Source: Holophagaceae bacterium (GTDB lineage Bacteria; Acidobacteriota; Holophagae; Holophagales; Holophagaceae). From it: DNA of 64,000 bases. Below are positions 33,686 to 38,131 of the stretch, in pieces; the first letter of the stretch is position 1, and each line of letters starts with the position of its first letter. The position numbers and the translations under genes are program-made. A model generated the notes under the pieces. That model worked only from the letters and a program-made list of their open reading frames with translations, searched no databases and was not told the DNA's origin. Location of the stretch: positions 496,001 through 560,000 of the forward strand of contig JAJTBS010000001.1 of assembly GCA_021286765.1 (NCBI GenBank), read 5' to 3'.

Positions 33686-35284
33686 TCATGAAAGCTTGAA
33701 GCGACGCGTAAGTACCTGAAGCTGTTGGGCCAAGCTGGCCAGCTCCTCCGTCGTCCGGGCCGTTTCCTGGACCGTGGCGGAGAGCTGGGTGGCGGCCGAG
33801 GCATTGCGCTCCACCATCTGGGTGGCGGATTCCATGGCCAGAACCACCTCTTCGCTGGCCCGGCCCTGCTCGTCCATGGCGTTGGCGATCCCCTTCAGCT
33901 GGCCCGCGTTCTCCCGCACATGGACTTCGATGCGCTCCAGGCTCCGGGAGGCCTCTTTGACCGACTCGGTGCCAAAGCCCACTCGCTCGGTGCTCTCTTG
34001 GATGAGCGTCGTGATTTCCTTGGCCGCTGTGCCGCTGCGTTCGGCCAGCTTCCGGACCTCCTCGGCCACCACGGCGAAGCCCTTGCCCATGGCCCCTGCC
34101 TTGGCCGCCTCGATGGCCGCATTCAGGGAAAGGAGGTTGGTCTGCCGGGCGATGTCCGTGATCACCGTGATGATCCGGTTCACCTTGGAGGAGCTCTCCT
34201 CGATGGCCTCCATGGCGCGGCCTGTGTCCTCGACGGCGGTCAGACCCTGCTGGCCCGCCTCCTGGGAGCGGGCGGCCAGCTCCTCCGCGCGCAGGGTGCT
34301 CTGCTTCACCTGCTGGATGTTGGCGTTCATCTCCTCCAGGGCGGCGGAGGAGCGCTCCATGGCCAGCCGTTCCTGTTCCGTGCTGCGGCGGAGCTCTTCG
34401 GTGGTGCGGTTGACCTGTTCGGTCGTGGCCGAAAGCTCCGTGGCGCTGGAGGCGGTGCCCTCTGCGGACTGGGCGATGGCCTGGATGTCCGAGCGCAGGC
34501 CCTGAATGACCTGCGCGAGGCCGGCGGCCACCTGCGCCAGTTCGTCCTTGCCGTGGACCTTGGGCGTCTGGGTCAGGTCGCCATTGGCCACCGCACCCAT
34601 GATCACCTCGATGTCGTGGGCCTTCCGGCCGACCCTCGAGCCGATGGTCCGGCTCAGAATGACGCCGATCAGGATGGCGGCCAACCCGACGCCGCCGATC
34701 CAGCCCTTGGCCAGGGCAGAGTGGCCAAGGTCTTCCTGGATGGAACGCTCGGCAGCCGATTCAGCCGCTTTCTGGAGTTTGAGCACCCTGTCACGGGCGG
34801 TGCGCATGATCTCGACATTGCCTTCCATCAACTTGGAAACGGCCTGGGGAGACCGGTCGGACTGGGCCTGGGCGAGCAGGGCGGGGAAGCCGGCATCGTA
34901 TTTCCGGAAGGCCTCGATGGCCTCGTCCAGAATGACCTTGTCCTCCGGGGACCAGGTCAGTGCCTTGGCCTCGGCCAGGTCCTTCTCGAGGGTCTCCCCG
35001 TATTTCTTCATGACCCCCTGCCGCATGCTGATGTAGCCCGGATCTCCGGCTCCGCCGATCATGCTCACGTGCACGGTGCGAAAGACGTTCATGCCGTTCA
35101 GCACCCGGGAGAGGGTGGCCGTCTTGGCCAATTCCTTGGCCACATCCCGCTGGCCGCTCTGGAGTTCGTTGACGGATAGCCAACCCAGCCCACCCACCAG
35201 AATCAGAGCCAGGGTCTGGATGGCGAGGAGCAGGTTGAATTTCCCCCGCATGCGCAGATCGTCAAGGAATTTTCCGATGCTCAT
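33686..35284 (-). CDS. Methyl-accepting chemotaxis protein
   Basis: This chemoreceptor has 532 residues: a membrane helix (~17-38), a periplasmic four-helix-bundle-type sensor (~39-190), a second helix (WIGGVGLAAILIGVIL, ~193-210), a HAMP linker, and a long coiled-coil signalling domain. The hairpin tip reads IARQTNLLSLNAAIEAAKAG with GKGFAVVAEEVRKLAERS, which contacts CheA and CheW. Glutamine/glutamate-rich flanks could be methylated. No C-terminal CheR-docking pentapeptide is visible (ends RRFKLS). No che genes are adjacent. A flagellar-type sigma28 promoter seems to precede it. Confidence 0.94.
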   Translation of the reverse strand: MSIGKFLDDLRMRGKFNLLLAIQTLALILVGGLGWLSVNELQSGQRDVAKELAKTATLSRVLNGMNVFRTVHVSMIGGAGDPGYISMRQGVMKKYGETLEKDLAEAKALTWSPEDKVILDEAIEAFRKYDAGFPALLAQAQSDRSPQAVSKLMEGNVEIMRTARDRVLKLQKAAESAAERSIQEDLGHSALAKGWIGGVGLAAILIGVILSRTIGSRVGRKAHDIEVIMGAVANGDLTQTPKVHGKDELAQVAAGLAQVIQGLRSDIQAIAQSAEGTASSATELSATTEQVNRTTEELRRSTEQERLAMERSSAALEEMNANIQQVKQSTLRAEELAARSQEAGQQGLTAVEDTGRAMEAIEESSSKVNRIITVITDIARQTNLLSLNAAIEAAKAGAMGKGFAVVAEEVRKLAERSGTAAKEITTLIQESTERVGFGTESVKEASRSLERIEVHVRENAGQLKGIANAMDEQGRASEEVVLAMESATQMVERNASAATQLSATVQETARTTEELASLAQQLQVLTRRFKLS

Positions 35285-36282: not shown

Positions 36283-36287
36283 CGGGT

Positions 36288-36294
36288 TAGCATA
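36288..36294. promoter_or_regulatory. Symmetric shared -10 element for two leaderless divergent genes
   Basis: The whole 17-base gap is CGGGTTAGCATAGACCC. On the plus strand TAGCAT is followed by six bases and the GNAT ATG; on the minus strand TATGCT is followed by six bases and the E1-alpha ATG. Both hexamers fit TAnnnT and overlap in one near-palindrome. Neither gene has a Shine-Dalgarno sequence, so both transcripts would be leaderless. No -35 hexamer is seen on either side. Confidence 0.55.
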
Positions 36295-36299
36295 GACCC

Positions 36300-36782
36300 A
36301 TGCTGACCCTCCGTCCCGCCGTCCCCGCCGATGCCCCCCTGATCCTGCAGTACATCCGCGAGCTGGCAGAGTACGAACGGGATCCCGAGGCGGCCGTCGC
36401 CACCGAGGCCGACATTCTCCGGCACGCCTTTTCCGAGCATCCCCTGGTTAAGGTGACCATGGCTGAGTGGCACGATCAGCCCGCCGGTTTCTGCCTCTGG
36501 TTCCTGAACTTCAGCACCTGGGAAGGCAAGCCCGGGATCTACCTGGAGGACCTCTTCGTGCGTCCGGCCTTCCGGGGCCATGGCATCGGGAAGGCCCTGC
36601 TGAAGCATCTGGCGGCCCTCGCGGTTCAGAACGGCTGGACCCGCTTCGTGTGGCAGGTGCTGGACTGGAACACGCCGGCCATCGAGTTCTACGAGGCCCA
36701 TGGCGCGAAGATCATGCGCCCCTGGCTCACCTGCCGGGTGGAGGGTGAGGCCCTGGCCCGCCTTGCCGAGGATGCGGGTTGA
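36300..36782 (+). CDS. GNAT family N-acetyltransferase
   Basis: The 160-residue protein is a GNAT fold acetyltransferase, closest in pattern to spermidine/diamine acetyltransferase-like members: LRPAVPADAPLILQYIRELA at the start, GIYLEDLFVRPAFRGHGIGKALL with the acetyl-CoA-binding loop, and WQVLDWNTPAIEFYEAHGA. The substrate cannot be told. Its TGA stop overlaps the TTG start of the next gene (TTGA), so the two are translationally coupled. Confidence 0.92.
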   Translation: MLTLRPAVPADAPLILQYIRELAEYERDPEAAVATEADILRHAFSEHPLVKVTMAEWHDQPAGFCLWFLNFSTWEGKPGIYLEDLFVRPAFRGHGIGKALLKHLAALAVQNGWTRFVWQVLDWNTPAIEFYEAHGAKIMRPWLTCRVEGEALARLAEDAG

Positions 36783-38131
36783 CCTGGCCTCCGCTGCTGC
36801 GCCTCCAGGAGGCCCTGGGCCCCGACTCGGAGCTGGTGATCGTGGGCGGCGCAGTCCGGGACGAGCTGCTGGGGCGGAACCATGCGGACTGGGATCTGGC
36901 CACGCGCCTGCTCCCCCAGGCCGTGATGGCGAAGGCCCGGACGGCGGGCCTGAAGGTGATCCCCACTGGGTTGCAGCACGGCACGGTGACGGTGATCCTG
37001 GAGGATCGCCCGGTGGAGGTGACCACCTTCCGCAGCGACGGCGACTACCTTGACGGGCGTCGGCCGGAGACGGTGCGGCTGGGGGTGGGCCTGGCGGAGG
37101 ACCTGTCGCGGCGGGACTTCACCATCAACGCCATGGCCCTCCCGGTGGGTGGAGGCGACCTTGTGGATCCCTTCGGTGGCCGGGCGGACCTGAAGGCTGG
37201 ATGGATCCGGGCCGTGGGCGATCCGTTGCAGCGCTTCGCCGAGGATGGCCTCCGGCCCCTGCGGGCCTGCCGCTTCGCCGCCCAGCTGGGTTTCGAGGTG
37301 GAGGCGGCCACCCGGTCGGCCATCGCCGAGCGGCTGGACGTGGCCCGCAAAGTGGCGGTGGAGCGTGTCTTCACGGAGCTGGACAAGTTGCTGCGGGGCT
37401 CGGAGCCCCAGCGGGGCCTGGCGCTCCTCGCCGAGAGTGGGCTCCTCGACCTGTGGCTGCCGGAACTGAGGCCCATGGTGGGCTGCGGCCAGAACCGCCA
37501 CCATGCCTACAATGTCTGGCGCCACACCATGGAGGTGGTCTGCTTTGCGCCGCCGGAGCCGGCCCAGCGCTGGGCGGCCCTCCTGCACGATGCGGGCAAA
37601 CCCGGCGCCCGCAGCGTCGGAGCAGACGGCGAGATCCATTTCCATGGCCACGAGGCCCGGTCCCTGGAACTGGCCGAGGGGATCTTCGATCGGCTGAAGG
37701 CCAGTCACACCCTGCGCAAGGCGATCCTGGCCCTCATCCGCCACCATGGCGTCCACCCCACGACGGCCTGGGGCGAAGCGGCCTGTCGCCGATTCCTGGG
37801 ACGGATCGAGGCCGACGGGCTGGGGCTGGCGCCCTGGGCCGCCTTCCGGCTGGCGGACCTGCGGGCCAAGGGGCTCGACTGGGAGGCGAGCCAGGCCGAG
37901 CACGCGGCGCTCATGGCACGCCTGGAGGGCCTGCTGGCGGCCAAGCCTCCCCTCACCGTCCGGGAGCTGGCGCTGGACGGGGCCGCCCTCATGAAGCTGG
38001 CTGGCCGCAGCGGCGGCCCCTGGCTGGGGGCACTGCAAAAGCGTCTGCTGGAAGTCGTGCTGGACGATCCGGCGGCCAACACCCCTGACCGGCTCGCGGA
38101 CTTCGTGCGACGAGATCCGGCGGGCCACTGA
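36779..38131 (+). CDS. CCA-adding / poly(A) polymerase family nucleotidyltransferase with HD domain
   Basis: This class II tRNA nucleotidyltransferase-type enzyme has 450 residues. The head domain shows IVGGAVRDELLGR and HADWDLAT with the catalytic acidic pair. The motif LSRRDFTINAMAL and DPFGGRADL follow, with the RNA-binding neck at FAEDGLRPLRACRFAAQLGF. A C-terminal HD phosphohydrolase domain has the motif LLHDAGKPGAR and IRHHGVH. The encoded CCA of the tRNA in this window means its role could be CCA repair. The TTG start has GAGG eight bases upstream. Confidence 0.93.
   Translation: MTWPPLLRLQEALGPDSELVIVGGAVRDELLGRNHADWDLATRLLPQAVMAKARTAGLKVIPTGLQHGTVTVILEDRPVEVTTFRSDGDYLDGRRPETVRLGVGLAEDLSRRDFTINAMALPVGGGDLVDPFGGRADLKAGWIRAVGDPLQRFAEDGLRPLRACRFAAQLGFEVEAATRSAIAERLDVARKVAVERVFTELDKLLRGSEPQRGLALLAESGLLDLWLPELRPMVGCGQNRHHAYNVWRHTMEVVCFAPPEPAQRWAALLHDAGKPGARSVGADGEIHFHGHEARSLELAEGIFDRLKASHTLRKAILALIRHHGVHPTTAWGEAACRRFLGRIEADGLGLAPWAAFRLADLRAKGLDWEASQAEHAALMARLEGLLAAKPPLTVRELALDGAALMKLAGRSGGPWLGALQKRLLEVVLDDPAANTPDRLADFVRRDPAGH

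Follow-up and report, generated by a model that had tools for sequence, protein, structure and literature searches.

A near-palindromic -10 core between divergent E1-alpha and GNAT genes in Geothrix as a candidate promoter for two leaderless mRNAs

Introduction

Can a single symmetric -10 element, confined to a gap of 17 bases, serve two divergent genes whose mRNAs would both begin at the start codon? The question is raised by a locus in the window (the whole 64,000-nucleotide stretch analysed here) from the 3.15-Mb genome of a member of Geothrix, a genus of soil and sediment bacteria in the Holophagaceae (Acidobacteriota). The gap at 36283-36299, read directly from the window as CGGGTTAGCATAGACCC, separates the start codons of an E1-alpha-like gene and a GNAT-family gene (Table 1). 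The original prediction placed TAGCATA in this gap with a TANNNT hexamer on each strand six bases from an ATG, and the coordinates and spacings are as claimed; the absence of a Shine-Dalgarno sequence that it also reported holds for both starts, with no 4-base match at either.

Table 1. Features of the E1-alpha/GNAT locus, in window coordinates
Feature	Position	Strand	Remarks
Thiamine-dependent dehydrogenase E1-alpha-like protein, 312 aa	35344..36282	-	Pfam PF00676 (E1_dh) E=1e-57; start conserved
GNAT-family N-acetyltransferase, 160 aa	36300..36782	+	Pfam PF00583 (Acetyltransf_1) E=3e-19; start conserved in genus
CCA-adding/poly(A) polymerase-like tRNA nucleotidyltransferase	36779..38131	+	Pfam PF01743 E=9e-31
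Common -10 core TAGCATA (TANNNTA)	36288..36294	both	near-palindrome of seven letters; dyad centre 36291
GNAT -10 element TAGCAT	36288..36293	+	six bases 5' of ATG; same hexamer in 4/51 TANNNT-at-6 genes
E1-alpha -10 element TATGCT	36289..36294	-	six bases 5' of ATG; same hexamer in 5/51 TANNNT-at-6 genes
Predicted GNAT transcription start, A of ATG	36300	+	inferred from -10 spacing
Predicted E1-alpha transcription start, A of ATG	36282	-	inferred from -10 spacing

Genes and start codons

The argument depends on the two start codons, for which independent gene calls give the same positions, 36282 on the minus strand and 36300 on the plus strand. The two ATGs, 17 bases apart, are preserved at 40 loci in Geothrix, of which 37 have distinct sequences across the compared stretch, and this agreement and conservation bear out the predicted starts and make it unlikely that the true start lies deeper within either gene. 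In GNAT, an in-frame TAG stop occurs four codons upstream with no intervening start codon, so 36300 is the most upstream start available to it. The called start of the CCA nucleotidyltransferase gene overlaps the GNAT stop, and the two genes are therefore probably carried on one leaderless mRNA. The E1-alpha-like protein scores 208 bits, far below the NCBIfam cut-off of 411 for pyruvate dehydrogenase E1-alpha, and the downstream neighbour of its gene encodes a chemotaxis receptor rather than an E1-beta subunit.

A leaderless gene class in the source genome

Class statistics were drawn from 1070 genes called with a simple codon model over 1.2 Mb of the largest contig. A TANNNT hexamer lies exactly six bases from the start codon in 51 of these, and each of the other spacings from 0 to 38 accounts for 0-17 genes. 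Shine-Dalgarno-like motifs are scarce in this set (3/51, versus 547/1019 among the remaining genes; p=2e-12), and ATG starts predominate (50/51 versus 792/1019; p=8e-5). From the spacing peak and the scarcity of Shine-Dalgarno motifs, the genome has a real class of leaderless genes, as judged by sequence statistics. E1-alpha and GNAT share its features: a TANNNT ending six bases from the start, an ATG and no Shine-Dalgarno motif. The 51 starts also favour G at -14 (67%), -6 (65%) and -5 (63%), and C at -1 (73%). A search for a -35 signal upstream of them found none evident, and at the E1-alpha/GNAT locus no match to a -35 element was found on either strand. For three genomes of Acidobacteria, 9.7-19.4% of genes have been predicted to be leaderless (Zheng et al. 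2011, PMC3160421); the strict TANNNT count used here gives a smaller fraction. Two more divergent pairs on the contig are predicted to be fully leaderless, with gaps of 31 and 38 bases, and their -10 elements are separate rather than shared.

Conservation of the symmetric arrangement

The pattern CATN5TANNNTAN5ATG, which describes the full layout from one start codon to the other, matches the source genome once, at the E1-alpha/GNAT gap. Across 47 Geothrix genomes it has 65 matches, compared with 7 for a control with six-base arms, 8 for one with four-base arms and 6 for the reversed pattern. Matched strings and fetched loci place these sites at the E1-alpha/GNAT pair in 37 genomes and at a second pair in 16, and the other 11 are close to the background number. 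TANNNTA is a short motif, with a probability of about 7e-4 at a fixed place, and at a single locus it might arise by coincidence or beside a miscalled start codon. That account is hardly credible once the relatives are considered: 37/47 genomes conserve the pattern together with both orthologous starts, the controls stay at background, and the comparison largely refutes it. The symmetric arrangement, on these genome counts, is not a product of chance.

Within the gap, positions 36288-36294 read TAG[C/G]ATA in the 37 distinct Geothrix sequences, six of the seven letters being fixed and the centre alone varying. The two genes, over their first 28 codons, contain 15 fourfold-degenerate sites, of which 0/15 are fixed, with a mean of 1.07 bits. 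All of these conservation counts are raw tallies of sequences, uncorrected for relatedness among the genomes. The gap of G. paludis, a cultured Geothrix, reads CCGGTTAGCATAGACCC. The check on conservation among relatives is thus strongly favourable to the original prediction, with the core invariant except at its centre. Exact leaderlessness may not hold at two loci, L015 and the sister-genus L290, because their plus-side spacings are 5 and 8 rather than six. One genome carries the E1-alpha/GNAT promoter twice on a single 36.7-kb contig (G009, C40), in opposite orientations at 2099-2121 and 34604-34626, near the contig ends; this doubling may be an assembly artefact.

A phylum-wide rule for the shared-core layout was considered and rejected: among 226 sampled Acidobacteriota genomes outside Geothrix, the pattern occurs in 88 and a one-base-longer control in 84, and in the absence of an excess over the control the rule was dropped.

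Recurrence of the layout at a second gene pair

The second recurrent site lies between gluQ, whose product matches TIGR03838 above its cut-off and is identified as GluQRS, and a divergent gene whose 250-aa product matches a methyltransferase weakly, scoring under the Pfam cut-off. This pair has exactly the same 17-base layout in 16 Geothrix genomes, and additional copies have GTG starts; in the source genome the pair has a near-copy of the layout with an 18-base gap. The design has thus either originated or persisted at two gene pairs that are unrelated.

A string resembling TTAG[C/G]ATAG is common to the gluQ locus and the E1-alpha/GNAT gap, and palindromes in divergent gaps are frequently operators. 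The near-palindrome could accordingly be read as the binding site of a DNA-binding regulator, with the promoters elsewhere. That possibility is very unlikely: the centre of the core varies while its outer TA/TA letters are fixed, both ATGs stand at an exact distance from it, and spacings altered by one base show no enrichment; an operator would need none of these. It also fits poorly with those relatives in which GNAT stands apart from E1-alpha and has, in place of the palindrome, a box resembling a -10 element equally far from its start.

Relatives in which the genes are separated

In five genomes (L018, L021, L026, L027 and L289) the distance between E1-alpha and GNAT is 355-400 bp, the gap in L289 being 369. 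The separated GNAT has TTGAAT exactly six bases 5' of its ATG in all five, with G at -6, and the separated E1-alpha has AATGAT 6-7 bases 5' of its ATG. Both genes thus appear leaderless-like after separation. A tree of both proteins places the five wide-spacing genomes together in a single clade nested within those that have the shared gap, and at the sister-genus locus L290 the gap is 19 bases long and contains TAGGATA, six bases from E1-alpha and eight from GNAT. From the nesting and the L290 core, the shared state is probably the older one, with the genes later split in one Geothrix clade. In L018, L021, L026 and L027 the intergenic stretch (~350-400 bp) contains an apparent minus-strand small gene of ~70 codons. 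In contrast to the leaderless genes on either side, it has a Shine-Dalgarno-like GGAGG close to its start.

Base -6: one promoter or two

A promoter that reads in one direction only would leave the second TANNNT as a by-product of -10 symmetry, with one gene truly leaderless and the other transcribed mainly from inside its opposite neighbour. Such an account has precedent, since many bidirectional promoters of other bacteria give a non-coding antisense RNA in the divergent direction (PMC10268837). The base at -6 distinguishes it from a promoter that serves both genes. Among the 51 leaderless genes this base is G in 33, C in 13 and T in 3; A occurs only in E1-alpha and GNAT, and in none of the other 49. 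In a shared TANNNTA the -6 base can only be A, since its complement is the -12T of the partner. The two outer letters concerned, 36288 T and 36294 A, are invariant, each being the -12T of one promoter and the opposite-strand -6 of the other. When GNAT is not opposite E1-alpha, its -6 base is G in the five separated genomes, C in L039 and T in L040. The pair therefore retains a base that is otherwise avoided in the class. A promoter reading in one direction leaves this unexplained, and the base shows the constraint of both -10 elements at once. Also against the one-direction account are the boxes resembling a -10 element that both genes, once separated, retain at roughly the original spacing, and the use of TAGCAT and TATGCT alike by other leaderless genes; we regard that account as improbable. 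As A at -6 is unusual for the class, each of the two promoters may be weak.

L039 and L040 are MAG contigs labelled Chloroflexi, and their GNAT has 79-87% protein identity to that of Geothrix; the contigs are probably misbinned or mislabelled.

Proposed mechanism

Conservation of the gap, the leaderless class, the double constraint at -6 and the recurrence of the layout at the gluQ pair together support the original prediction of one symmetric element and two leaderless mRNAs at the level of sequence comparison; that prediction included neither the second gene pair nor the match of the 18-bp start distance to known bidirectional promoters. The 17-base gap is very probably a minimal bidirectional promoter for the housekeeping sigma factor. 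RNA polymerase carrying that factor, the presumed one at this promoter, would melt the near-palindromic core in either orientation and begin transcription at the A of each ATG, at predicted starts 18 bp apart. The leftward leaderless mRNA would encode E1-alpha, and the rightward one GNAT, probably together with the CCA nucleotidyltransferase. Polymerase occupancy of the two orientations is expected to be mutually exclusive, which would give E1-alpha and GNAT one landing site in common. Both mRNAs would then be translated by the leaderless route, by whole ribosomes. With the initiating A being the A of each AUG, both start codons would double as promoter letters: 36300 supplies, on the minus strand, the -18 T of the E1-alpha promoter, and 36282 supplies, on the plus strand, that of the GNAT promoter.

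A stronger proposal is that the stretch from ATG to ATG is one selected 23-bp unit, with the promoter and the start codons of two genes written in the same letters, that forces E1-alpha and GNAT-CCA to compete for one polymerase. We hold this only tentatively, as a possibility with the odds against it. Five bidirectional promoters tested in E. coli had basal activities too low to make competition important, but activating one side can repress the opposite side (PMC12825309). If the proposal were true, central carbon metabolism and tRNA maintenance would be coupled without a regulator, and GluQRS and the methyltransferase-like protein would also compete at the second locus.

The arrangement is of interest as about the most compact expression of two genes, requiring seven common base pairs and two start codons. 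It would offer a natural test of polymerase competition at a shared -10 element with no leader to tune translation, and nature supplies the controls: relatives with the split pair, a second pair of the same design and the unusual A at -6, which would show the cost of sharing. It also adds the Acidobacteriota, in which leaderless transcription had been predicted and has now been looked at by comparison.

Comparison with known systems

The closest parallels are the bidirectional promoters described by Warman, Grainger and colleagues (PMC12825309, PMC10268837), which have a pseudo-symmetric common -10 element with reciprocal pairing of -7T and -11A. The opposed -10 elements overlap in the same way in TAGCATA, where both strands show the reciprocal -7T/-11A pairs. 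Known bidirectional promoters have starts 7-25 bp apart, typically 18 as predicted here. In E. coli and Salmonella no distance between starts is commoner than 18 bp (PMC12825309, PMC10268837), because at this distance the -7T/-11A pairing is reciprocal and each initiating A gives the -18 T of the opposite strand. A T likewise lies at -18 relative to each predicted start in the Geothrix gap. Polymerase binding in the two orientations is mutually exclusive at those promoters, as is proposed here. The difference is that both RNAs are predicted here to be leaderless mRNAs, so that the start codons supply +1 and the -18T of the partner; PMC12825309 and PMC10268837 do not mention leaderless transcripts.

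The leaderless genes of Zheng et al. 2011 (PMC3160421) likewise have a TANNNT ~12 bases upstream of the start and no Shine-Dalgarno sequence, but they are treated there as single genes, and no element common to a divergent pair was found in that text. In M. tuberculosis, Rv1130 prpD and Rv1129c, for example, are divergent neighbours that are both leaderless, in their case from mapped starts, and closely juxtaposed divergent promoters are called common; the portion of that report consulted describes no single common -10 element, unlike the situation proposed here (PMC3898074). Restriction-modification operons of the EcoRV type (PMC5333194) also have overlapping divergent core promoters with exclusive polymerase binding, but their C transcript is not leaderless and the C protein regulates the switch, whereas neither E1-alpha nor GNAT is an evident regulator. 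The literature searched, an incomplete set that lacked the original 2021 description of bidirectional promoters, contains no conserved pair in which one -10 element gives two leaderless mRNAs. Promoters that share a -10 element are well known, as are leaderless genes; their conserved, fully leaderless combination, by this comparison, appears to be new.
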